This document shows, one piece after another, positions 89 through 10,284 of a DNA stretch of 12,490 nt. The stretch spans positions 1 through 12,490 of the forward strand of contig JAOZRC010000088.1 of the NCBI GenBank assembly GCA_029940345.1, given 5' to 3'. The notes under the pieces are model-generated. The model had not been told where the DNA came from and did not search any database. It saw only the letters and a list, made by a program, of their open reading frames with translations. Position numbers and translations under genes: made by a program. Within the stretch, counting starts at the first letter, position 1, and every line of letters starts with the position of its first letter. Source of the DNA: Desulfobacterales bacterium (GTDB lineage: Bacteria; Desulfobacterota; Desulfobacteria; Desulfobacterales; JAUCGF01).

Positions 89-220
89 GGCATCCTCCAT
101 TGAACGGTTGACACTTAAAAGATGGAGTGCCAAACTTACAGTTTGGCAGATTTCAGTACAGCCCTTGATCACCGCCAAACTGTAAGTTTGGCACTCCGCC
201 TAAAAGTGTTAACTACTTTA
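89..220 (+). mobile_element. MITE-like palindromic element, copy 1 (right end missing)
   Basis: The left end GGCATCCTCCATTG (89-102) matches the ends of the copies at 7602-7740 and 10085-10234 with one change. It is followed by the shared sub-terminal block with CGGTTGACACTT. Two perfect 24-bp inverted arms (124-147 and 174-197) surround a 26-base loop, and the conserved AAAAGTGTTAACTACTTT block follows. The expected right end AATGAAGGATGCC is absent: similarity stops near 220. It is in the same orientation as copy 2 and inverted relative to copy 3, and its loop resembles the loop of copy 3. It has no coding capacity; an apparent short reading frame across it is an artefact of the palindrome. 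It is probably an old copy truncated by a later rearrangement. Confidence 0.75.
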
Positions 221-244
221 CGGGTTGCCAGAGCGTCTGATAAA

Positions 245-333
245 CGTTCCAACACCGGTGCTTTGGAACGAGTTTTTATATTAGGCTATCAGCCTGTTTT
301 TTCAATATCAGTAAGTCATTATGGTAGCTGAAC
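245..333 (+). repeat. 89-bp direct repeat, copy A
   Basis: It begins with a hairpin, CGTTCCAA (245-252) pairing with TTGGAACG (263-270), around the internal palindrome CACCGGTG (253-260). The conserved block CCTGTTTTTTCAATATCAG (293-311) and then AAGTCATTATGG follow, and it ends in GAAC. Copy B at 443-531 has exactly the same length and aligns without gaps. The hairpin loops and the 275-292 segment diverge most. It has no open frame shared by both copies, so it is read as a non-coding interspersed repeat. Confidence 0.7.
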
Positions 334-335
334 TT

Positions 336-435
336 CATCCTGTAATCCGTTAATCCTGCCAATCCTGATTCAGACCGTGATTGGCTGTTACCATTGTCTG
401 AATTAGGATTTAGCGGATTGAATGATTATAGGATT
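336..435. repeat. imperfect palindrome built from AATCC-type units
   Basis: The left arm 336-375 contains several degenerate AATCCTGNN units and ends in AATCCTGATTCAGAC. The right arm 396-435 begins GTCTGAATTAGGATT. The innermost 15 bp pair with one mismatch, and the 40-bp arms pair at roughly 70 % over a 20-base loop. It fills nearly all the space between the two 89-bp direct repeats. Short AATCC-rich palindromes of this sort are widespread between genes in environmental Gram-negative genomes. No function is assigned. Confidence 0.6.
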
Positions 436-442
436 TTCATCT

Positions 443-531
443 TGTTCCAATGCTGGAGCGTTGGAATGAGCTTTTTTATCTGCCCGTCTGCCTGTTTTTT
501 CAATATCAGCAAGTCATTATGGCAGCGGAAC
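443..531 (+). repeat. 89-bp direct repeat, copy B
   Basis: This is the second copy of the unit at 245-333. The leading hairpin is TGTTCCAA (443-450) with TTGGAATG (461-468), and the block CCTGTTTTTTCAATATCAG recurs at 491-509, then AAGTCATTATGG and a terminal GGAAC. The copies differ by scattered substitutions without indels, so they are not a recent tandem duplication. Between this repeat and the end of the DUF3999 gene (532-648) I see no gene or convincing terminator. Confidence 0.7.
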
Positions 532-648
532 AAACATTCTGATTTCCAAATTTCAGGTGAGATGCCATGCCTCCAAAAAAAAGATTATTATCGAAGTTAC
601 GGACAAAAACTGATCAGCCTCTTTGCCAAACTGCTGTTTTCAAGCCGG

Positions 649-2007
649 TCACATTTGTCGATAAAGGTTCCAGGCCATAAAGCCTAAGAAAACAACCCCG
701 GCGACCAAAATTACCCATAACAACCACTGTTTCCACGGTATGGGTGGTGGCATCGGGTTCAACCGGGATGCACCGCCGAGTTGGATGCGTTCCTTTATAT
801 GCGCCGGGCGAATCAATGAAGCGGGCTTGGTTTTGTTTTGTAACGGTTCAAGAAGGAGATTGTCAGTAGGTGCCGGTGGCCTCATGTCGGCATTCCCGAA
901 TGCCAGCGTAAACGGGGATTCGCCGCGAGCCAGAAATACCAAATCATTGGGCGTCCATCCCAATTCCAGGCGCGGTGGATTATTTCCCATGCCGCCCGTG
1001 TCAGACAGGATTTCCAAGCGCCAATAACGATCGGTGGTCAAAGCAGATGAAAAAACCGGATTTTGCATGTCAGTTTGGTCCATCCGCAGATTATAAAACA
1101 CTCCTCTACAACGTTGGCGCCAGGGATCATCCGCGTTTTGGCGTGATTTTACGACCGCCTGTATCAGGCTGTTGATCTGAGGCAGTCGGACATTGACCTG
1201 GTCTGCCGGAAATACGCCTTTGCTGTCAAAGTGAAACACCCTGAGATTATCAGCGTCGCGGACACCGGAGAGCGTAAACGAGCGACGCGGCCGAGAAATC
1301 ACCTTATTAATGACCGTACCTCGAACATCTGTCAGGTGTACATCCGTAGCACCGGCCGGCCATTGCAAACGCAGATAAGGCGCTTGCCGCAGCGGGAGAT
1401 GAATCCGGCGCTGTTCCAGTTTGTGATTGCCGTATAGCATCTCAGTGAGGGTTGCGGCCCGAACCAACGTATGCCAGGCAGATAAATCCTGACTATAAGA
1501 TACGCTGACGGTGGTGATAAAATGTGAATCCGCACCTTCCCAATGCAACTGCAATTCACTGATCGTTTTTTTTATATGACTGACATCGATCAGGTACGCG
1601 CTTATCTTGGAAGTCGCATCTGTATCAGTTTTACCGGTAACCATAATAATAGCGCCGGCGGCGTTAGTCTTGACATTCAGAGATAACGGTTTATCACTTT
1701 TGCCTTTGGGTTGAAAAACAGGGAAAAACGGCAAAGACAACTGTTCGGGCGCTTTGGCGCGATCACTTTGACGGAATTGCAGCACATGCGGAACCACCTC
1801 GCCATGTGTATTGAACACCCTTAAATCACCCAGATCGTTTCGCGTTACATTTTGATAAACATCTTCCGGCAAAGTGATTTTATAAAGCGAACCAAATTTG
1901 TCCACGCTCAATTGATAGCCAAAGGCAAAGTCATCCGGATGGGGGCCATCCGCCCAAATCGCGGGCGGCCATATCAAAACAATCAGCATTATTATTGTTC
2001 TTTTCAT
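649..2007 (-). CDS. DUF3999 family exported, C-terminally membrane-anchored protein
   Basis: The protein has 452 residues. Residues 1-19 form a signal peptide (hydrophobic core IIMLIVLIWP, cleavage after AIWA). The mature part opens with the DUF3999 signature DFAFGYQL and LPEDVYQNVTRNDLGDLRVF followed by GEVVPHVL (about 26-76). The late family motif with LELGWTPNDLVFLARG lies near 350. A proline-rich stretch (PMPPPIPW) leads into one transmembrane helix at about 428-447 and a short tail NLYRQM, so the bulk should lie outside the inner membrane. The length is normal for the family. The start is supported by GGAGA six bases upstream. It lies 154 bp downstream of DUF2339 on the same strand; the two families are often neighbours, which suggests a joint envelope role. 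The biochemical function is unknown. Confidence 0.88.
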   Translation of the reverse strand: MKRTIIMLIVLIWPPAIWADGPHPDDFAFGYQLSVDKFGSLYKITLPEDVYQNVTRNDLGDLRVFNTHGEVVPHVLQFRQSDRAKAPEQLSLPFFPVFQPKGKSDKPLSLNVKTNAAGAIIMVTGKTDTDATSKISAYLIDVSHIKKTISELQLHWEGADSHFITTVSVSYSQDLSAWHTLVRAATLTEMLYGNHKLEQRRIHLPLRQAPYLRLQWPAGATDVHLTDVRGTVINKVISRPRRSFTLSGVRDADNLRVFHFDSKGVFPADQVNVRLPQINSLIQAVVKSRQNADDPWRQRCRGVFYNLRMDQTDMQNPVFSSALTTDRYWRLEILSDTGGMGNNPPRLELGWTPNDLVFLARGESPFTLAFGNADMRPPAPTDNLLLEPLQNKTKPASLIRPAHIKERIQLGGASRLNPMPPPIPWKQWLLWVILVAGVVFLGFMAWNLYRQM

Positions 2008-2161
2008 GTAGTTATCTCCTTGTTCACAAACGCAATCCGGGTCATCTTTTCGGTAACCTTCAAAAGAGTCCGACAGGGTTGAGTTTCAGCATCGTCCCGA
2101 CACCCCAATTTTATAAAACACCTTATCAATGATACCATCGTTGCATTCCCCAACCACACAA

Positions 2162-4945
2162 TCAGGAATCCTCATGCCGTCGTGGCGGCAACGGCGAAAA
2201 ATAGCCGATGATGAGAATCAGGACACCCACTCCTAAAAATGATACAATTCGCGAAATCGTTCCGATGCCGGAAAGATCAACGATGAACAATTTCAACACC
2301 TCAAGTCCCAGGAGCGTCGCACCGACGAACCACACCTCTCGCATTCCTTTGCGCGTGGCAAATCCCATAACACCAAATGCAGTCAGACTCCATACAATTG
2401 AGATAGCGGCCTGGAACAGGATGGAAGCGTGCATGTAACGCCCGGTAAAAGGTGTATCTCCCCAAAAGTGTACAGTGCGGGCGACCACTGCATTAAGCCA
2501 TAGGAAAATAATCAGCACTAACGCATAAATGAAAGTTCGATCCGGCAGTTTCGAAATTAGCGGCGGATTTAACATCCGGATGTGTTTAATCCATGCAATT
2601 ATTACCAGGAAAATAAACAGTTGAACCATATCCAGCGGGTTTAAAACAGGAAAATAGGGCAACGGACGCGGTTCCCCGGTTGTGAACGTCGAAACAAAAC
2701 TCTGAATCCCAATAAACAGAACCAGTATGGCCGCACCGAGACCTGCATACCATTTATAATATTTGCGAAATGGCCAGCGAATACGCTTTCCCCATTTGAT
2801 TAAGGCAAAAATCACAACACCGGGAGCAATACTCCACACCACAAAATACCAAACCCTGGCGTCTTTCACCACCTGATCGACGGCCCAGGCAAGCTCCCAT
2901 GTCAGGATTAGCACCGCCAGCCACAGGGATACCAGATGCAATATCAGAATCAGACGCTTCCACCAAAGCGTTTCAAAACAACGCATCTGGTAATACCAAA
3001 TCGTAAAGGCTGTCACCCATGGAATGGCACCCCAGTGCGTAAACGGGTGCTCAATTGATTTTCGGTCAAAGCAAGTCAATGCCGTAATGATCATGGTCGG
3101 CAGTAAAATCAACGGTGGCCATCGCATGGCGCGCCAATTCAGCTTGCGCGCCAGCCATCCCATAGTCAGAACGCTAACGGCAATAAATAGCAGATTGGCA
3201 TGAATCTCATTTTTGCGGAGCATAAATTCTTCAATTTCACGTAAACCACCGCCCAACCACCAAAGCAATCCCCAAATAAAGATAGGTATATAAAACTGTT
3301 TTTCCCATTTTCGCAACCGGTCAGAATGAAGTTCGAGATACCTCGCGGCGCTCAACCCGGCTAAACTGATAATCAGGCATCCGAGAAAGATGCTGTTGGC
3401 AATCGGTATGTGGGTTTGTATTTTGTATGCAGTGCTGAGAAAGGCGATGCCGGCCCCCAGTTGGAGCAGCAATCCGAAATTACGTGCCAGGCAACGGGAT
3501 TGGCGAACGCCGATCCAGATCAAGGCGAAACCTTCCAGCGCCCACACCGCCGCTGTCCAACGCCCTTCAAGCGCCAGTGGAATCGCCAGACTGCCGAACA
3601 CCACCCCCAATGACAGGAAAGCTTCGGTTAACAGGCGCAAGCCATCCGCCTGTTTTTTCCATAAAACAGTTGCCAGGATGATATAAAAAGCGGCCGCGCC
3701 CAAAGCGGAATAGGCCAGACCGTATTTGAAATCACGAACCAGGGCATACTGCAAACTGAAAAAGATTAACGGCAGTCCGAAAACAAGCGTGCCGTCAATG
3801 TAGCCTTTCAGGTCAGGCGTCTGGCGAAAGGCAAAAAGCACTGCAATGGCCGTGTAAAATATAAAAAAGAGAATTAAAAAAGGTTCTGTGGAAGCAAAAA
3901 AAGCCGGGGTGTAATAATGATATCCCCATGACGCGCCAATGCCGAAAGTGAACACAAAGCCGATCAAATTCAGGGCGCGCCAGGATCGGAACCAGGCGAT
4001 ACCCAAAATACCGGCATTCAATAGAGCGTAATAAGAGAAAAGCATGATATGACTGCCGCCGCCGGTAGACATTAGCACCGGTGCCATAAAGCCGCCTGCC
4101 GAGCCGAACTGCGCCAGTACATGGGCGTCTTGTAAGACAGCCAAAATACCGGCAAGCACGACGATCGCAATCATCAGGGCAAAAGCCAGTCCCACCGGTG
4201 CCAATGTATACATTTTGGCCGCGGCGAAAAGCGTGAAATAGAGCACACCGACACCGCCGCCCTGGATCATCAGCGCATAGTTGCGCCGCCGAAGGCGCAG
4301 GCGCCATCCGATGGCCAGCATCAACAGACCGCCCAAGCCCGCGCCCATCAGACGGATTTCAATGGGAAGCATGTTGTGTTCAGCGGCAAATTTAAGCAAA
4401 AACGCCACACCGCAAAACAGCACAATCAGGCCGATGCGCACCAGCAGGTTGTCACCAATAATGATCTCTTTTAACCTGTTAATAAATTCAGATGGGGTGT
4501 TTTTTTCCGAATATTCAGAGGCAGTTTTGATTTTTTCGGACGATGTAGGGGGTTCTGTGTCGTATTCATAATCAAAAACCAACGGTTCGGGAGTTGGCGC
4601 TGTCACTTCTTTGGCTATATCTGTAATAGGTCGTTCCGAAGGTTCCGCAGTCGGTTGTGGAGATGTTTGCCGAGCGGTTTGTGATGACCGAATTAATTCC
4701 TCTGCCGGTGTCAAAGCCGTTTCATTTTTTTCAGGCGTGGCAGGCGACGGCGCGGACGTCTCCGCGGTGGGTTCCTTTAACTGGCGGCTCAAAACATCCA
4801 CCCGGCGTTGTAGTTTTACCAGATGGCGTTTCAGTTCCCAAGCGAAGCCAAAGAGAAAACCGAGTGCAAATCCAATGACAGCGCCGGCGAATTCAAACAG
4901 TATTGCGCCGCTGATTGAACCGATAATGGCTATGATATATCTCAT
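2162..4945 (-). CDS. DUF2339 family polytopic membrane protein
   Basis: The protein has 927 residues. A glycine-rich membrane hairpin (about 3-36) is followed by a basic, probably coiled-coil helix (38-57) and a Pro/Thr/Glu-rich linker (about 58-150). After that comes the DUF2339 domain, entered through IGDNLLVRIGLIVLF (163-177). It carries the family hallmark GGFMAPVL (284-291) and continues as closely packed hydrophobic segments to the end, on the order of twenty or more membrane spans. An AAAGG sequence lies seven bases upstream of the ATG. It is first in a likely operon with the DUF3999 gene. The biochemical role of DUF2339 is not established; size and topology suggest a transporter-like or envelope-assembly membrane protein, but that is inference. 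Open frames on both strands inside it are shadows. Confidence 0.9.
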   Translation of the reverse strand: MRYIIAIIGSISGAILFEFAGAVIGFALGFLFGFAWELKRHLVKLQRRVDVLSRQLKEPTAETSAPSPATPEKNETALTPAEELIRSSQTARQTSPQPTAEPSERPITDIAKEVTAPTPEPLVFDYEYDTEPPTSSEKIKTASEYSEKNTPSEFINRLKEIIIGDNLLVRIGLIVLFCGVAFLLKFAAEHNMLPIEIRLMGAGLGGLLMLAIGWRLRLRRRNYALMIQGGGVGVLYFTLFAAAKMYTLAPVGLAFALMIAIVVLAGILAVLQDAHVLAQFGSAGGFMAPVLMSTGGGSHIMLFSYYALLNAGILGIAWFRSWRALNLIGFVFTFGIGASWGYHYYTPAFFASTEPFLILFFIFYTAIAVLFAFRQTPDLKGYIDGTLVFGLPLIFFSLQYALVRDFKYGLAYSALGAAAFYIILATVLWKKQADGLRLLTEAFLSLGVVFGSLAIPLALEGRWTAAVWALEGFALIWIGVRQSRCLARNFGLLLQLGAGIAFLSTAYKIQTHIPIANSIFLGCLIISLAGLSAARYLELHSDRLRKWEKQFYIPIFIWGLLWWLGGGLREIEEFMLRKNEIHANLLFIAVSVLTMGWLARKLNWRAMRWPPLILLPTMIITALTCFDRKSIEHPFTHWGAIPWVTAFTIWYYQMRCFETLWWKRLILILHLVSLWLAVLILTWELAWAVDQVVKDARVWYFVVWSIAPGVVIFALIKWGKRIRWPFRKYYKWYAGLGAAILVLFIGIQSFVSTFTTGEPRPLPYFPVLNPLDMVQLFIFLVIIAWIKHIRMLNPPLISKLPDRTFIYALVLIIFLWLNAVVARTVHFWGDTPFTGRYMHASILFQAAISIVWSLTAFGVMGFATRKGMREVWFVGATLLGLEVLKLFIVDLSGIGTISRIVSFLGVGVLILIIGYFSPLPPRRHEDS

Positions 4946-5264
4946 GCAAGAACCTTTCCGTTTGAATCGTTTAACTTGAATCGCAATCTGATTTTTTACT
5001 TGTTTCAGACATTCATATAGGGAGCTTCAGAAAATTTATTTCACAAGAATAGAGAGAGGCGTCAGTATTTGAAACAGTATATACGGATAAGCAAGGAAAA
5101 AGAAATATAGCAAGCTAAGTGACAAATGTAAAGGATCGTATTTCACCTCTGATTGCCAGGTTGAAAATTTTCTAAATTTAATACTTGCAAAATGACACCA
5201 ATTAATCAATATATTATCCTGTTTGCCAACAGGGCAATTGCATGAAAATTCGGGGGAGGGCGGA
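4946..5264. other. AT-rich divergent intergenic region
   Basis: This 319-bp gap separates the divergent DUF2339 and PilC-like genes and should carry both promoters. A weak plus-strand candidate is TTGCAA (5185-5190) with TATATT (5210-5215), but the 19-base spacing is long. I found no tRNA, strong hairpin or copy of the repeats present elsewhere in the window. Confidence 0.4.
5252..5264 (+). promoter_or_regulatory. strong purine-rich ribosome binding site fixing the start of the PilC-like gene
   Basis: GGGGGAGGGCGGA directly precedes the ATG at 5265, with the GGAGG core about five bases away. This favours 5265 over the in-frame TTG at 5223, which has no such signal. Confidence 0.65.
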
Positions 5265-6317
5265 ATGTATCAAACTAAAGTAGAGCGAAAAGATATCATC
5301 ACTTCTTCAAAACAGCTTGCATCCATGATCGAAACCGGTTTGCCCATTAGGCAATCCTTGGACGCTCTCGTTTCGCTGCAGAAAAACAGCGCCATGCGAA
5401 AAATAATGCAGAGCATTAAAGAATCGATCGAAAACGGTGCCACCTTGGCGGAAGCGTTAAAAAAACATCCTGAACATTTCAATAATTTTTATGTCTGTAT
5501 GATTGATGCCGGCGAATCCGCTGGCCAGCTTGATACGGTTTTAAACCGACTGATCGAACATCTGGAAAAAGCGGAAAAATTCAAAGCACAAATCAAAAGT
5601 ATTATAACTTATCCAACCGTTGCGCTGGCAGTCGCCGGCCTTGGCATCGGTGCTATTTTTATATTTGCTATTCCTGTGCTTGAGGCAATAGTCGTTAGCA
5701 TGGGAGGTGCATTACCGACGCCTACAAAAATAGTTGTATGGCTTTCACGCATCATGATTAGTAAATCTTCGTCTATTATCATTGGGATCATTCTTTTCAG
5801 CATTGCTTTTCAATGGTACCGCAACACACTAAAAGGACGCGAGTTTATTGATAGGATAATGCTAAACCTGCCGGTTTTCGGTGAATTGTTGAAAAAAGGC
5901 GCGGCGGCCAAATTTACACGCACCTTAGGGATACTTTCTATTGATTTGCCTATCTCGGAGGCATTGGCAGTAACAGCTACAACAACTGACAACAAAGCCA
6001 TTGAAAAGGCGATAATCAAAGTAAGCGCTGAAATTGCCAAAGGGCGGCCATTGGCGGATTCACTTTCTAAAGTCGGTGTGTTTCCAAGCATGATGTGCAA
6101 GATGATTGGCGTAACAGAATCTGCAGGGGGACTAGATGCGATGCTGGTAAAAGTGGCCGATTTTTATGAGGAAGAGATTGATCAGGCGTTGGAGAAGATA
6201 ACCGCGATAATTGTGCCAACTAGCCTGGTTTTTATTTGTATCGGAGTAATAATTATGATTTTTTTGGTATTTTTTATTGCTTGCTCTCTCCCATTTTATG
6301 GTAATTCATATGTTTAA
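5265..6317 (+). CDS. GspF/PilC-family inner-membrane platform protein, orphan
   Basis: The protein has 350 residues and two type II secretion F domains. The first (about 13-137) opens with SSKQLASMIETGLPIRQSL, has the AGESAGQLD turn near 82-90 and ends in a membrane helix (about 117-140). A second helix lies at about 168-185. The second domain (about 214-338) has KFTRTLGILSIDLPISEAL, the TESAGGLDAMLVKVADFYEEEID repeat of the same turn, and a final helix (about 316-342). In type IV pilus and type II secretion machines this protein is the membrane platform that couples the assembly ATPase to the pilin filament. Compared with the roughly 400-residue PilC/GspF it lacks about 50 N-terminal residues. 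No ATPase, prepilin, peptidase or secretin gene is nearby, so its partners must be encoded elsewhere or it acts differently. It converges on mutY with a 35-bp gap and no obvious terminator. Confidence 0.85.
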   Translation: MYQTKVERKDIITSSKQLASMIETGLPIRQSLDALVSLQKNSAMRKIMQSIKESIENGATLAEALKKHPEHFNNFYVCMIDAGESAGQLDTVLNRLIEHLEKAEKFKAQIKSIITYPTVALAVAGLGIGAIFIFAIPVLEAIVVSMGGALPTPTKIVVWLSRIMISKSSSIIIGIILFSIAFQWYRNTLKGREFIDRIMLNLPVFGELLKKGAAAKFTRTLGILSIDLPISEALAVTATTTDNKAIEKAIIKVSAEIAKGRPLADSLSKVGVFPSMMCKMIGVTESAGGLDAMLVKVADFYEEEIDQALEKITAIIVPTSLVFICIGVIIMIFLVFFIACSLPFYGNSYV

Positions 6318-6352
6318 ATTAAACACCAAAAAATTTATTTTGATTAAACCGA

Positions 6353-7456
6353 TTAACCCCTTTCCTCAAACAGTTCACGGATACGCCCAAAAAATTTATG
6401 GTTTGCTTTGGGGAACGGGTATTTGCTGATTTCATCCGTCGTTATCCATTGATAAGCCACGGGACCGTTTAATTTCACCTTGCCGCTGATATAAAGGCAA
6501 TGAAAGACATCCATCACAATTTTAAAATGGGTGTAAGCATGTTTTATCCGGGTGATATAAGACCGTATTTCCACCCGGAGATTCACCTCTTCCCAAATCT
6601 CGCGAATACAAGCAGCTTCAGCAGTCTCTTGCCGGCGGATTTTACCGCCAGGAAATTCCCACAATCCGCCTAACAAACCGTCATTTGATCGTCGGGTGAT
6701 CAACAGACGATTGTTGTGCGACACCACACCCACGGCAATATGATATTCAGGGATCGGCTTGGAAGGCGTTCGTCGGGGATATTCGTTAATCGTATTTTTT
6801 TGAAAGCTCTTACAAAACATTTGAACCGGACAATTGCCACACTCCGGTTTTTTGGGTCTGCAAACCGTAGCGCCCAATTCCATCATCGCCTGGTTAAATT
6901 GCCCGGGTTGAGCTTGGTCCAGTAATTGGGTTGCAATCGCTTTGAAGTGTTGATAAGAAGAGGAGTGATTGACTGGGGCCGAAATCTGGTTCAAGCGGGC
7001 CAAAACGCGTTTAACGTTGCCGTCTACAACAGCGAGAGGCCGGTTAAACGCGATGCTTTGAACGGCGGCGGCGATATAGTCCCCGACACCCGGTAGTTTT
7101 TGAAAATCGTCAGGGTCTGAAGGAACGCTGCCGTCGTGTTGGTCGCATACAATTTGTGCGGCCCGATGTAAATTGCGCGCTCGTGCATAATATCCCAGAC
7201 CTTCCCATGCTTTAAGCACCGCTTGTGCATCGGCTCCGGCCAAGTGGCTGATATGTGGAAAAGCGGCCAAAAAAGGATCATAATAACGCAGCACCGTTTT
7301 AACCTGGGTTTGCTGAAGCATCACTTCTGAAACCCATATTTGATACGGGTTAGCAGTTTCGCGCCAGGGAAGCCGGCGATGGTGTTGCCGATACCAGTTT
7401 GTTAATTCGGTTTGAAATTGTTTGACTGATTTTAGAATATGCGTCAGGGTGTCCAT
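6353..7456 (-). CDS. mutY: A/G-specific adenine DNA glycosylase MutY
   Basis: MutY removes adenine mispaired with 8-oxoguanine, starting base-excision repair. The protein has 367 residues. The glycosylase domain (about 12-215) shows the catalytic glutamate E44 in WVSEVMLQQTQV, the helix-hairpin-helix LPGVGDYIA (121-129) and the catalytic aspartate D145 in VVDGNVKRV. The [4Fe-4S] cysteines are C199, C206, C209 and C215 with canonical C-x6-C-x2-C-x5-C spacing. The C-terminal MutT-like domain (about 238-362) has the lesion-recognition segment HAYTHF (306-311; FSH in E. coli). Unusually, it also has a nearly complete Nudix box (G271, E277, R285, E286, E289, E290; only the glycine near the end is replaced by N292). 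The start codon lacks a strong Shine-Dalgarno sequence. No gene is co-directional with it nearby, so it is probably transcribed alone. Confidence 0.95.
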   Translation of the reverse strand: MDTLTHILKSVKQFQTELTNWYRQHHRRLPWRETANPYQIWVSEVMLQQTQVKTVLRYYDPFLAAFPHISHLAGADAQAVLKAWEGLGYYARARNLHRAAQIVCDQHDGSVPSDPDDFQKLPGVGDYIAAAVQSIAFNRPLAVVDGNVKRVLARLNQISAPVNHSSSYQHFKAIATQLLDQAQPGQFNQAMMELGATVCRPKKPECGNCPVQMFCKSFQKNTINEYPRRTPSKPIPEYHIAVGVVSHNNRLLITRRSNDGLLGGLWEFPGGKIRRQETAEAACIREIWEEVNLRVEIRSYITRIKHAYTHFKIVMDVFHCLYISGKVKLNGPVAYQWITTDEISKYPFPKANHKFFGRIRELFEERG

Positions 7457-7468
7457 TGATAACTTTCG

Positions 7469-7474
7469 ATTATA
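7469..7474 (-). promoter_or_regulatory. candidate -10 box for mutY
   Basis: Read on the minus strand this is a perfect TATAAT. No good -35 hexamer lies 16-18 bases upstream. Transcription from it would leave a leader of only about six bases, consistent with the weak ribosome site. The short inverted-repeat element at 7476-7551 abuts it and may supply or disturb upstream promoter sequence. The evidence is a single hexamer. Confidence 0.28.
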
Positions 7475-7475
7475 G

Positions 7476-7551
7476 AGTATGCTTCATTTTCATCGGTTCA
7501 CCCACCGAAAAGTTTTTTGCAAAAAGTATGGATTGTTAAATGAAGGATACC
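7476..7551. repeat. short element with MITE-related ends
   Basis: The left end AGTATGCTTCATT (7476-7488) and the right end AATGAAGGATACC (7539-7551) are inverted repeats of each other (11 of 13). Both resemble the 13-bp ends of the larger elements. The interior lacks the 24-bp-armed stem and has only the small hairpin CGGT...ACCG. No 8-bp duplication flanks it. It could be an internally deleted relic or a chance pairing of one solo end with an AT-rich sequence. Confidence 0.4.
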
Positions 7552-7572
7552 AAATAATCAATGCTTTTCTGA

Positions 7573-7773
7573 TTGCAAAACGAATATTTAAACCAATCTT
7601 GGGCATCCTTCATTTTCCGCTTAACACTTTAAAGGAGTGCTGAACCGAAGGTTTAGCGTTTACGCTGGCCTTTGCTAAACCTTCGGTTCAGCACTCCCCA
7701 TGAAAGTGTAAACTACTTTTAAGCTATTATGAAGGATGCCCAATCTTGAATGAATTTCAAATTCGTTTTACAA
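7573..7773. repeat. older palindrome split by the MITE insertion
   Basis: TTGCAAAACGAAT (7573-7585) and ATTCGTTTTACAA (7761-7773) are inverted repeats matching at 12 of 13 positions. They now lie on either side of the 139-bp element. Removing the element and one copy of the target duplication brings the arms within about 40 bases of each other, a plausible hairpin. The right arm shares CAAATTCGTTTTAC (7758-7771) with the palindrome at 10285-10334 (13 of 14), so it belongs to a dispersed family. Confidence 0.5.
7602..7740 (+). mobile_element. MITE-like palindromic element, copy 2, with 8-bp target duplication
   Basis: Terminal repeats GGCATCCTTCATT (7602-7614) and ATGAAGGATGCC (7729-7740) bound the element. 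The direct repeat CAATCTTG occurs immediately outside both ends (7594-7601 and 7741-7748), the mark of transposition. Inside are sub-terminal blocks containing ACACTTT and GAAAGTGTAAACTACTTTTAA. A central stem has perfect 24-bp arms (7634-7657 and 7674-7697) and a 16-base loop. Each arm is nearly self-complementary: GCTGAACC, GAA, GGTTTAGC. There is no transposase or other coding sequence, so it would depend on an enzyme supplied elsewhere. Families with 8-bp duplications include IS1595, ISL3 and IS66; I cannot assign the parent. Confidence 0.85.
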
Positions 7774-7803
7774 TCACTGCATTTGTTGATTTGAAAATAA
7801 TAA

Positions 7804-7933
7804 GAGTGTAACCTTGTTTGGCAGGATGGATGAAGCACAGCGTAGCCCACCATCGTATGATTTCGAAATTACGGTGAGTTTCGCTACGCTACACCCACCC
7901 TACGGACGCAATAAACGCAAAAAGGTTGCACTC
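7804..7933. repeat. intergenic hairpin repeat with outer inverted ends
   Basis: The outer ends GAGTGTAACCTT (7804-7815) and AAGGTTGCACTC (7922-7933) pair with one mismatch. Inside, AGCGTAGCCCACC (7840-7852) and GGTGAGTTTCGCTACGCT (7873-7890), followed by ACACCCACCCTACG, form the imperfect hairpin of a palindrome type commonly scattered in environmental proteobacterial and cyanobacterial genomes. It ends about 30 bp before the start of the next gene, so it may supply the transcript leader of that gene. Confidence 0.6.
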
Positions 7934-7966
7934 AAATGATAATAGCCAAATAAATAAGGAGTGAAC

Positions 7967-9118
7967 ATGGAAATAAAAAAGTATGTGGCTGCGGAACTAT
8001 TCGATTGGATTGTCAATCAGGAAGATTTTGTATTGCTGGACGTGCGTAATCCCAAAGAAGTGGCGCGCTTTAAAATTGAAGGCCCCGATCCGGTTGAAAT
8101 GCTGAATGTACCTTACATTGATTTTATATATGAAGAGGAAAAAAAGGATAGCATTGCCAAAGTGCCTGCCGGTAGAATCATCCGGGTTGTATGCGCCAAG
8201 GAAGGTTCATCCCAATTTGTTGCCGAAGCGCTGATTGAAAACGGCTTTGAAGATGTTGCCATTCTAAAAGACGGCATCAAGACCTGGGGCAACTTATTGG
8301 TTCCCAAACTGATCTGTTCCCAAGAAAATTGGTGTCTTTATCAATTTATTCGTCCGGCCAAGGCTTCATGCAGCTATGGACTGATCAGCGGGAAACGGAT
8401 GGCTATTTTTGATCCCTGTATCAATGTTGAATTCTATCAGGATTTTGCTGATGAAATCGGGTGCAAGATTGTAAAAACTTTCGAGACCCATCTTCAGGCC
8501 GATTACATATCCGGCAGTCAGGCCCTGGCTAGGGACAATGATGCTGAAATTATCGGTCACGCAAATGACTTTAAAGAAGCTGCCTTTGCCTATTCACCGG
8601 TGGAAGACCGCAAATTTTACTCCTTAGATGACCAAGGACCTTCTGTTGAAGCGATCCACTCCCCCGGACATACGCCGGGAAGCACCTGCTATCTGATTGA
8701 CAGTCGTTATCTGATTTCAGGCGACACGGTTTTTCTTGTGTCCATCGGGCGGCCGGACTTGGGCGGCAAAGCCCAGGGGTGGTCAAAGCTTTTATTTAAT
8801 ACGATGAAAACAACGATTGCGGCCATGGATAACCAATTATCTGTTTTGCCTGGACATTTTGTTAATTGGGATGAGGCTGGCAGCGACCTTGTATTCATGG
8901 ATACGCTGGGCAGCATCAAAGATAAAAATGAGGCGATTTATGACATTGCAACGGAGGAGGCCTTTTTTGAATTCATTAAGGCCAATATGCGTCAACAACC
9001 GGAAGAGTATGCCCGGATTCGTCAAATCAATGCCGGCTTAATAACCGTGGATGCTAAGGAGCAGGAAATTATGGACTTAGGCAAGAATGAATGCGCCGCC
9101 AGCGCCAACCCTTCCTGA
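7967..9118 (+). CDS. rhodanese / metallo-beta-lactamase fusion, persulfide-dioxygenase-like
   Basis: The protein has 383 residues and is predicted cytoplasmic. The N-terminal rhodanese domain (about 4-113) has the active-site loop VVCAKEGSS with cysteine C76. The metallo-beta-lactamase domain (about 122-300) has THLQADYISGS (174-184), HSPGHTPGST (231-240), SGDTVF (251-256), GRPDL (261-265) and LPGH (294-297). Persulfide dioxygenases of the ETHE1 group bind one iron through the first His of THxHADH, the His of PGHT and the Asp of GDT. Those are present here as H175, H235 and D253, while the second-metal residues are altered (Q177, Y180). The likely role is oxidation or transfer of glutathione-type persulfide sulfur. 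The C-terminal tail (about 300-383) resembles PDO tails. The start at 7967 follows AAGGAG by five bases; the GTG at 7961 overlaps that site. It is monocistronic, closed by a terminator. Confidence 0.85.
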   Translation: MEIKKYVAAELFDWIVNQEDFVLLDVRNPKEVARFKIEGPDPVEMLNVPYIDFIYEEEKKDSIAKVPAGRIIRVVCAKEGSSQFVAEALIENGFEDVAILKDGIKTWGNLLVPKLICSQENWCLYQFIRPAKASCSYGLISGKRMAIFDPCINVEFYQDFADEIGCKIVKTFETHLQADYISGSQALARDNDAEIIGHANDFKEAAFAYSPVEDRKFYSLDDQGPSVEAIHSPGHTPGSTCYLIDSRYLISGDTVFLVSIGRPDLGGKAQGWSKLLFNTMKTTIAAMDNQLSVLPGHFVNWDEAGSDLVFMDTLGSIKDKNEAIYDIATEEAFFEFIKANMRQQPEEYARIRQINAGLITVDAKEQEIMDLGKNECAASANPS

Positions 9119-9128
9119 TTGGATTCTG

Positions 9129-9172
9129 ATCAGACCCTCCCTCTCTCCTGACAGGACAGGGTCTGATTTTTA
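9129..9172 (+). terminator. rho-independent terminator of the rhodanese/MBL gene
   Basis: ATCAGACCCT (9129-9138) pairs perfectly with AGGGTCTGAT (9158-9167). The stem is followed by a T-rich run (TTTTATT). It lies 11 bases past the stop codon. The loop is about 19 bases and could extend the stem partly through a CCTG/CAGG pairing. Confidence 0.85.
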
Positions 9173-9232
9173 TTCATTTATCAGCAGAAGATAATCCCCT
9201 GGAGCAAACCCATCAATGCTGCGGTAAACATA

Positions 9233-9267
9233 TCCATTGCGTACTTTTTGATGTATGCGTCAATGGA
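9233..9267. repeat. inverted repeat upstream of the chemoreceptor remnant
   Basis: TCCATTG (9233-9239) and CAATGGA (9261-9267) are perfect 7-bp inverted repeats. The bases just inside them (CGTAC and GTATGCG) partly pair as well. It sits 34 bp before the start of the broken receptor gene and could be a former operator or simple hairpin. No regulator can be named. The stretch 9173-9300 holds nothing else that I recognise. Confidence 0.35.
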
Positions 9268-9300
9268 CACCTACAGTGTTTAATCAAACGGTAACAATAA

Positions 9301-9926
9301 ATGCTACTGAAAAACAGAAAAATCGGTACAAGACTCGGGCTGGGATTTGGCGCTGTAATTGTAATTATTATAATATCTGCTGGCATCAGCGCCATTAAGC
9401 TGGATACGATTCACACTCGATCGATCCAAGTGGGCGAAGAAAACAAAAATGCCATACTGTCTAACGAAATGGCGTTTATTACCATCAAAATAATGAACCT
9501 TTTCTTATATGCATCCACACACACAAGCTTGAGGGATTTAAGGAGGCCGAAGAAGTCAGCACGGCCTTCAAAAATAAACTGGCCGAATTGATAAAAAGCA
9601 GCGGTAATGATCAAAACAGGCTCAAAGAGCTGGATACACTCATGGCCGCATTTAACCGCTATTATGAACTCGGCAAGGAGATGGCCTATGTATATTTAAC
9701 CGAAGGGATCGAAGAGGGCCATCTGCTGGTCGCGGATTTCGATAAATCCGCCCAAACATTGACTTCCGGAATGAAAACCTTTTAAATGGAAAAAATGGCT
9801 GAAGCCCGCAAAGGTATTCAAAGTGTGGCAAATTCGACTGACCATGTTAAAAAACTTATTTTTTGGATGAACGGACTTGCCATTCTCATCAGCGTTTGCG
9901 TATCTGTTGTGATCACTTATAGCTGA
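9301..9926 (+). pseudogene. truncated, frameshifted methyl-accepting chemotaxis protein remnant
   Basis: The start MLLKNRKIGTRLGLGFG followed by a membrane helix (residues about 17-33) is typical of chemoreceptors with a four-helix-bundle sensor. Frame 1 runs to about 9525. There a run of five CA units (9516-9525) shifts the frame; with one unit fewer it continues as ASTHKLEGFKEAEEVSTAFK, then through LIKSSGNDQNRLKELDTLM to MKTF. A TAA at 9783-9785 interrupts. The same frame then resumes with EKMAEARKGIQSVAN and a second membrane helix LIFWMNGLAILISVCVSVV, and stops at TGA 9924-9926. The HAMP and cytoplasmic signalling domains are absent, and no further receptor sequence follows. Three lesions plus loss of the output half mean it cannot work as a receptor. 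Confidence 0.8.
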
Positions 9927-10084
9927 AAACAAAGGCGTTATAAATATCAAAAAATATGCTCTTAGAGATGTGTATAACGATGAGGGTTGAAATCCCAGGC
10001 TATATCACTTTGTCGCTTCGCGGCATAACTTCCCCCCAAATCCGTTATAATCAGACATTATTTTAAAAAATCATCATAAAATTG

Positions 10085-10234
10085 GGCATCCTTCATTTTG
10101 ACCTAAAAGTAGTTTACACTTTTTCGGGAGTGCCAAACTTACAGTCAGGCGGTTGATAACTGCCGTGCTTGTATCTGCCAAACTGTAAGTTTGGCACTCC
10201 GGCTTAAAGTGTGAACCGCTCAATGAAGGATGCC
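10085..10234 (-). mobile_element. MITE-like palindromic element, copy 3, with 8-bp target duplication
   Basis: Perfect 13-bp terminal inverted repeats GGCATCCTTCATT (10085-10097) and AATGAAGGATGCC (10222-10234) bound this 150-bp element. TAAAATTG is directly repeated outside both ends (10077-10084 and 10235-10242). It is inverted relative to copies 1 and 2: read on the minus strand it aligns along its whole length, including the loop, with copy 1. The central arms are 10127-10150 and 10177-10200. They match except for two adjacent positions (CA for TT at 10146-10147 read against the other arm), so this copy has begun to lose its symmetry. It has no coding capacity. It lies about 160 bp beyond the receptor remnant and about 250 bp before sucA. 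Confidence 0.88.
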
Positions 10235-10284
10235 TAAAATTGCAGGAGGATTTTTTCAATACAGTTCCTAAAAACCATATTCAA

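Follow-up and report, generated by a model that had tools for sequence, protein, structure and literature searches.

The 12,490-nucleotide stretch analysed here (the window) is one whole contig, JAOZRC010000088.1, of the 6.05-Mb, 1024-contig genome of a Desulfobacterales bacterium (assembly GCA_029940345.1). It contains three copies of a nested palindrome, in which the arms of a long stem are themselves built as short hairpins, and this raises the question of whether such a structure is kept for a function or was multiplied as part of something larger. An earlier note on this DNA had proposed selection or repeated copying for a structure that alternates between a single long stem and a pair of short hairpins. 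Each palindrome is the core of a larger unit, a miniature transposon. The palindromes are very probably REPINs, doublets of inverted repetitive extragenic palindromes (REPs), carried as cargo of a miniature inverted-repeat transposable element (MITE) that derives from an insertion sequence (IS).

Three nested palindromes and the larger element

The nested palindromes were found to be real. Copies 1 and 2 have arms of 24 nt with 100% complementarity, and all three palindrome stretches, folded as single-stranded DNA, were better than shuffled sequences (z −10.8, −12.3 and −9.6, with 0/200 shuffles as good in each case). Folded alone, the left arm of copy 1 and that of copy 2 each formed an 8-bp hairpin with a 3-nt loop after an unpaired GGAGT, with one G.T pair in the short hairpin of copy 2. 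Copy 3 was described earlier as carrying GCCAAACT-TAC-AGTTTGGC in both arms, which is incorrect for the left arm, GCCAAACTTACAGTCAGGC. Because this arm ends in AGTCAGGC in place of AGTTTGGC, the long stem has two mismatches and is 92% complementary. The change is uncompensated, and the left-arm hairpin of copy 3 folds no better than shuffles (z −0.67, 48/200).

Copies 2 and 3 are bounded by GGCATCCTTCAT ends, lie between perfect 8-bp target duplications, measure 139 and 150 bp and have no coding capacity. Copy 1 has kept its left end and lost its right one, and matches the reversed copy 3 at 83%. Two blocks flanking the hairpins had been noted as constant: GGAGTGC indeed heads the palindrome unit, but AAAGTGT is a subterminal part of the larger element and lies outside the palindrome.

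Target duplications, burst and empty site

Elements like copy 2 elsewhere run from GGCATCCTTCAT to ATGAAGGATGCC, and the 8-base target duplicate follows most of them. In searches of the window's own genome (the home genome), where the best 40 candidates were scored in each DNA search, copy 2 had 20 other copies at 98–100% identity among the best 40 of 463 candidates, one of them cut by a contig end. The 12-base end occurs exactly 471 times in this genome (237+234) against one occurrence of the reversed pattern, and with at most one mismatch 392+389 times against 4+7 for the reversed control, both among the matches listed. From the home-genome loci, 77 non-redundant end pairs were taken, 45–420 bp apart and with some mispaired ends included. 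A target duplication of 8/8 was present in 41 of them and of 7/8 in another 10, against 0.65 and 0.62 with shuffled flanks, in a sample that is biased since the loci were recruited by searches with these elements.

Joined-flank queries (73) were compared with loci of the sister species (G038), and one clean empty site was found. The home locus L032, one of the 20 copies and 99% like copy 2, consists of 139 bp between two copies of catttttg; the sister-species locus L252 runs through ttCATCTTTGaatatc with a single target copy, at 83% over 186 bp. Two further candidates were rejected: L023 has a spanning match to a pair without duplication, and the spanning match of L061 covers only 67 bp. With its 8-bp duplications, a burst of near-identical copies and an empty site, the element in the window transposes, and the repeated copying that had been suspected is thereby confirmed.

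In the sister species, 8/8 duplications were seen in 6 of the 13 end pairs listed, and five of these six have GGAGTGC cores. These composites carry stem variants of their own. Their presence suggests that the composite of MITE and GGAGTGC palindrome is older than the species split, independent capture being the alternative.

A probable parent insertion sequence

An autonomous element was not found in the first sets of loci and was then found in Desulfonema magnum, as a 1923-bp IS with both MITE ends and an 8/8 duplication. The same 533-aa protein is encoded at 100% identity in four places of that genome, with 8/8 duplications at three of the four. A 1951-bp relative of the IS, also with an 8/8 duplication, is present in G143, where the protein match is split over two frames. 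Two long end pairs considered earlier as the autonomous element were dropped, as they are without the MITE subterminal sequence.

The two ends of the IS are unlike each other, and both are retained in the MITEs of the window. Against the long IS end, the MITE ends showed 33/40 and 35/40 identities, and against the short end 30/38 and 29/37. Every MITE end gave a better score with its own IS end than with the opposite one (26 v 13, 30 v 16, 16 v 9 and 17 v 8), the best of 300 shuffles scoring 12. Judged from these ends and the 8-bp duplications, the 1923-bp IS is the probable parent of the MITE, and we infer that the 533-aa protein would be the transposase moving the MITE in trans.

This protein has no Pfam or NCBIfam family above cut-off; its weak matches below cut-off are to Mutator/IS256 models (E 0.077 and 0.04), to rve, to IS481 and to one unrelated model. 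The IS possibly belongs to an undescribed family, as judged by Pfam and NCBIfam only. Among 72,556 plasmid records, the only match to the protein was in Acaryochloris, at 25% over two hypothetical proteins. Of 19 end-rich genomes searched, 12 gave a match to the protein, against none of six others. D. magnum also carries a 306–307-bp MITE (L232, L234, L396, L397 and L401) with the same ends and CTACAAAATTTGTAG palindromes inside, of which the copies are near-identical and have 8/8 duplications. Table 1 gives the positions of the elements.

Table 1. Positions of the three window elements, their parts and the probable parent IS.
Feature	Position	Strand	Description
Copy 1 MITE, putative REPIN core inside	89..219	-	left end GGCATCCTCCATTGAACGGTTGACACTT; right end cut off after AACTACTTT
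Copy 1 left REP-like unit	124..147	+	GGAGT + GCCAAACT-TAC-AGTTTGGC hairpin
Copy 1 right unit, inverted	174..197	-	100% complementary to left unit
Copy 2 left target-site duplicate	7594..7601	.	CAATCTTG
Copy 2 complete MITE, putative REPIN core	7602..7740	+	139 bp
Copy 2 left unit	7634..7657	+	GGAGT + GCTGAACC-GAA-GGTTTAGC
Copy 2 right unit, inverted	7674..7697	-	100% complementary to left unit
Copy 2 right target-site duplicate	7741..7748	.	CAATCTTG
Copy 3 left target-site duplicate	10077..10084	.	TAAAATTG
Copy 3 complete MITE, putative REPIN core	10085..10234	+	150 bp
Copy 3 left unit	10127..10150	+	damaged hairpin (AGTCAGGC replaces AGTTTGGC)
Copy 3 right unit	10177..10200	-	hairpin intact
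Copy 3 right target-site duplicate	10235..10242	.	TAAAATTG
Probable parent IS, D. magnum	L399:4945-6867 (D. magnum C1, about 1,896,944-1,898,866)		1923 bp; encodes 533-aa protein

The core resembles a REPIN

The core consists of GGAGT and an 8-bp hairpin, followed by an inverted copy. A short hairpin after a constant unpaired 5' tetranucleotide, here GGAG, was seen in two of the three left arms folded. In the home-genome loci, 39 distinct doublet cores were counted, with units allowed up to three mismatches to the pattern. Among the matches listed, the exact unit pattern occurs 76+81 times in the home genome (control 0+0) and is present in 15 of 242 genomes of the order. Among 80 loci listed, the named records that carry the unit are of Desulfobacterales lineages with the exception of one 'uncultured bacterium'; the genera and families concerned are presumably all members of that order.

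Units and MITE ends occur apart from each other. Some genomes are rich in units and have few ends (units/ends, among the matches listed: G116 97/4, G032 29/0, G167 19/2, G076 246/9), and others have ends and no units (G024 237 ends, G035 272 ends). At 30 home loci, 24 of 26 units stood within 110 nt of a MITE end (8/130 for random positions), and in other genomes 0/30 and 3/124 did (random positions 2/150 and 12/620). In the sister species, doublets occur both on their own and inside MITEs. Its free doublets L253 and L254 share other flanks with the doublet L165 (..GCCGCCAAG / TTTTCGATCTACTGATA..); the likeness is partly two-sided, and a second composite element is perhaps involved.

REP-associated tyrosine transposases (RAYTs) were searched with the NCBIfam model NF047646 in D. 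magnum and the home genome. In D. magnum, three of the four genes over the cut-off stand in arrays of GGAGTGC-headed repeats. Three homologues of the D. magnum RAYT in G167, called by homology (60–64% identical), also lie among GGAGTGC-headed repeats. The home genome has nine RAYT-like loci, of which two are at or over the cut-off and one (C705) is a remnant with 75 residues matched at 59%. One supposed linkage of unit and RAYT, at L183, was rejected: the unit lies inside another open reading frame (ORF), about 500 bp from the Y1 gene.

In the proposed mechanism, a REPIN, made of two inverted REP units of GGAGT plus hairpin, would sit at the centre of a non-autonomous transposon that retains only the two ends (about 30–40 bp each) of an IS of the D. 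magnum 1923-bp kind, with its 8-bp duplications. The IS transposase, supplied in trans, would copy or move the whole block and so spread the REPIN as cargo. The short hairpins may be a relic of the REP's original life with a RAYT, RAYTs being taken as IS200/IS605-like enzymes that act on single-strand hairpins. We infer that the REP entered the MITE through the action of a RAYT, and presumably no cognate RAYT is active in the home genome now.

Other palindromes between the same ends

The same MITE ends hold further palindromes in the home genome, among them GTCCC-GGGAC, GTAGGGTGGG and GTAGTTCCGCC, and other cores stand between these ends in G024, G049 and G143. Because the same ends hold other palindromes, the MITE centre seems to capture palindromes repeatedly. 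Over 346,103 bases of home contigs, the motifs stood away from MITE ends in 16/17 cases for GTAGGGTGGG, 4/8 for the GTCCC type and 0/2 for GTAGTTCCGCC. GTCCC-GGGAC is both the core of other home MITEs and a neighbour of IS200-like genes in relatives. The latter palindromes were seen at L173, L175 (a long array), L176, L179 and L180, and at L091 of the home genome. In G024, the cores at L241, L244 and L245 are built of CGGGATCGGGATC-type repeats between the same MITE ends.

More tentatively, and as an idea that we would at present rather doubt than assert, the MITE might be a general REP carrier. Its centre would repeatedly take REP dimers from unrelated RAYT families (the GGAGTGC types, GTCCC-GGGAC, GTAGGGTGGG, GTAGTTCCGCC and others elsewhere), and REPs that no longer have a RAYT of their own would keep spreading under a second, unrelated transposase.

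Weighing the origin of the core

The GGAGTGC palindrome could instead be intrinsic to the MITE and no captured REP, its likeness to RAYT-associated repeats being a convergence on a short motif. This would agree with the closeness of 24 of the 26 sampled home units to MITE ends and with the absence of the GGAGTGC head from the flanking stretches examined at the home RAYT-like loci (0/9). However, other genomes of the order contain this 24-mer pattern in abundance and away from MITE ends, unrelated palindromes stand between the same ends in other copies and genomes, and the sister species has free as well as MITE-borne doublets, which makes an intrinsic origin improbable.

There is likewise little probability that a RAYT is still the mover, with REPINs transposing alone and MITE ends serving as a favoured landing place. 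REP dimers inside palindromes are indeed reported from other bacteria in the part of PMC3733652 consulted, and two home RAYT-like genes reach or exceed the NF047646 cut-off, but the likeness of the burst copies extends as far as the MITE ends and breaks off at the 8-bp duplications, and the empty site is without the whole 139 bp. With the GGAGTGC head at 0/9 of the home RAYT-like loci in the stretches examined, a RAYT was rejected as the current mover in this genome.

Several observations weigh against a REPIN carried by an IS-derived MITE. On the side of the IS, three of the 12 genomes with the protein have it only at E 1e-6 to 1e-4 and others as fragments, and it was not found in 7 of the 19 end-rich genomes searched, the sister species included. 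The home genome gave only a fragment of the IS (C819) and a version with a palindromic stretch in place of the second half of the gene (C366), and the present source of transposase is therefore unproven. The structure of the protein was predicted poorly by AlphaFold (predicted local distance difference test score, pLDDT, 48.8). On the side of the REP, the GGAG guide differs from the canonical tag GT[AG]G, as given in the part of PMC6006769 available. The missing GGAGTGC head at the home RAYT-like loci counts here as well, and the fourth D. magnum RAYT gene over the cut-off (L449) has no GGAGTGC in its flanks. Units beside the intact RAYTs examined have the GGAGTGC head with other stems (GAAAAT, AAAAATT, AAGGTTT), and the one CCAAACT-type stem seen near a RAYT adjoins a decayed RAYT piece in G116 (L347). 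Of the GGAGTGC heads near D. magnum RAYTs, 33/34, 0/11 and 11/36 at three loci passed a 6-bp hairpin test.

Variation of the arms

The possibility that only two arm sequences exist, arisen by a single swap, was ruled out by 46 distinct 24-mer units over all loci, 15 of them in home-genome loci. With five of the eight stem pairs set by the search pattern, three were left for the assessment of covariation. Pair 8/22 was Watson-Crick in 40/46 distinct units (shuffle mean 19.5) and pair 13/17 in 38/46 (shuffle mean 29.2). Pair 9/21 showed no covariation (25/46, shuffle mean 25.2), and neither did the slid controls. With relatedness ignored in these tests, P for pairs 8/22 and 13/17 was 0.035 and 0.009 in the home genome (15 distinct units), and 0.0002 and 0.074 in other genomes (35 distinct units). 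Selection for the short hairpin thus has some support from two pairs and none from the third. The within-arm covariation fits the recognition of single REP hairpins; complementary mutations in REPs have been noted earlier (PMC2817692, in the part consulted).

Strict compensation at four linked positions, as first proposed, does not hold. Besides the two mismatches of copy 3, the arms were identical in only 3 of 34 distinct arm pairs from home-genome loci, and position 8 differed between the arms in 17 of the 34; both arms remained self-paired in 11 of these 17 and one arm was paired in the other six. The two arms of one element differ at 100 places against 188 for random partners, and at the level of sequence these counts show their common descent. 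When G.T is included, 576/624 stem-column cells are paired within arms and 562/624 between arms, and therefore neither structure is clearly the one kept. According to the proposed mechanism, stems would drift or be replaced as the hairpin pairing and the GGAGTGC head stay, giving an apparent covariation between subfamilies. Arm-to-arm covariation in repeats should thus be read with caution and not as RNA function.

Terminators, RNA and gene setting

At none of their six ends are the 24-bp stems followed by a run of five or more T; the longest such run close to a stem, TTTT, lies on the minus strand beside copy 1. A terminator scan flagged none of the long stems, but it accepts loops of 3–8 nt only, so that whole long stems are outside its range. 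Over the window it gave 16 sites (15.7 in shuffles), including one 5-pair site at 10149–10166 between the arms of copy 3. Of the 51 home elements with 7/8 or 8/8 duplications, 36 could be assigned a setting from the ORFs around them, the other 15 having short flanks or no gene on one side. Of the placed elements, 21 lie between tandem, 10 between divergent and five between convergent genes, and none in an ORF. The bidirectional terminator suggested earlier is not borne out by these results, and an intrinsic terminator was rejected for want of such T runs and for the few convergent sites. Rfam gave no family at or above its gathering score in the window; two matches far below threshold (E 0.094 and 0.54) were rejected.

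That the copies are kept as a selected functional structure, be it a bidirectional terminator, a processed RNA or a switch between long stem and two hairpins, is very improbable: the folding is very strong and two of the three testable pairs covary within arms, but the T runs, flagged stems (within the loop limit) and Rfam family are lacking, only 5/36 placed elements are convergent, and many copies are recent insertions with target duplications.

As to the individual copies, copy 2 lies between divergent genes for an HhH-GPD/NUDIX protein and a rhodanese/metallo-beta-lactamase protein, and copy 3 lies upstream of a 2-oxoglutarate dehydrogenase E1 gene.

Relation to known systems

REPs usually go together with a RAYT gene in the same genome. 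In the present case, the REPIN appears to spread as passenger of an unrelated transposon, with the duplications and the empty site as evidence. The likeness to REPINs, as described in the part of PMC3116915 available, lies in a pair of short palindromes in inverted order, each with a constant 5' tag, which can fold as one long hairpin or two short ones and are present in many copies, and in same-headed units surrounding some RAYT genes in relatives. Unlike those REPINs, the units here have the tag GGAG(T) and not GTAG/GTGG, and 24/26 of those sampled in the home genome stand close to the ends of a transposon that has target duplications of its own.

In A. variabilis, H. neapolitanus and T. roseum, REP dimers were found 'inserted within long palindromic sequences' (PMC3733652), and as in those cases a REP dimer lies here in the middle of a longer dispersed palindrome. 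The outer palindrome is unexplained in the part of PMC3733652 consulted, whereas in the present genome it is a MITE, for which 8-bp duplications, an empty site and a probable parent IS were found and which holds several unrelated cores. If general, the arrangement would account for those REP dimers in longer palindromes of other bacteria. It would also give substance to the suggestion, made in the same paper, that other transposases may move those REPs that lack an enzyme of their own.

With the Correia/NEMIS, RUP, ERIC and Nezha MITEs, as covered in parts of PMC3733652 and PMC2817692, the element shares a length of 70–300 bp, the absence of coding sequence, terminal inverted repeats in common with an IS, and target duplications. 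It differs in a parent protein without Pfam or NCBIfam family above cut-off and in an interior that is a swappable palindrome. A MITE bearing another class of repeat is described from Porphyromonas gingivalis (PMC4596501, seen in part), where the cargo is a minisatellite, whereas here it is a REPIN. A limited look at the REP and MITE literature gave no printed case of a REPIN carried in a MITE.

Other repeats in the window

A second, different repeat is present at 246–333 and 444–531, the two copies being 81% alike, and has a GTTCCAA...TTGGAAC hairpin with T runs downstream of it. Its hairpins fold better than shuffles, and it resembles what we take to be the widespread GTTCCCACGC palindrome. 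At 7814–7905 lies an imperfect inverted repeat of the GTAGGGTGGG/GGTGGGCTACG type, which looks like a GTAG-tagged REP; 7810–7910 as a whole folds no better than shuffles. The stretch 9301–9950 holds a 96-aa ORF without Pfam match, followed by coding-like sequence in another frame, and gives the impression of a decayed chemoreceptor-type gene.

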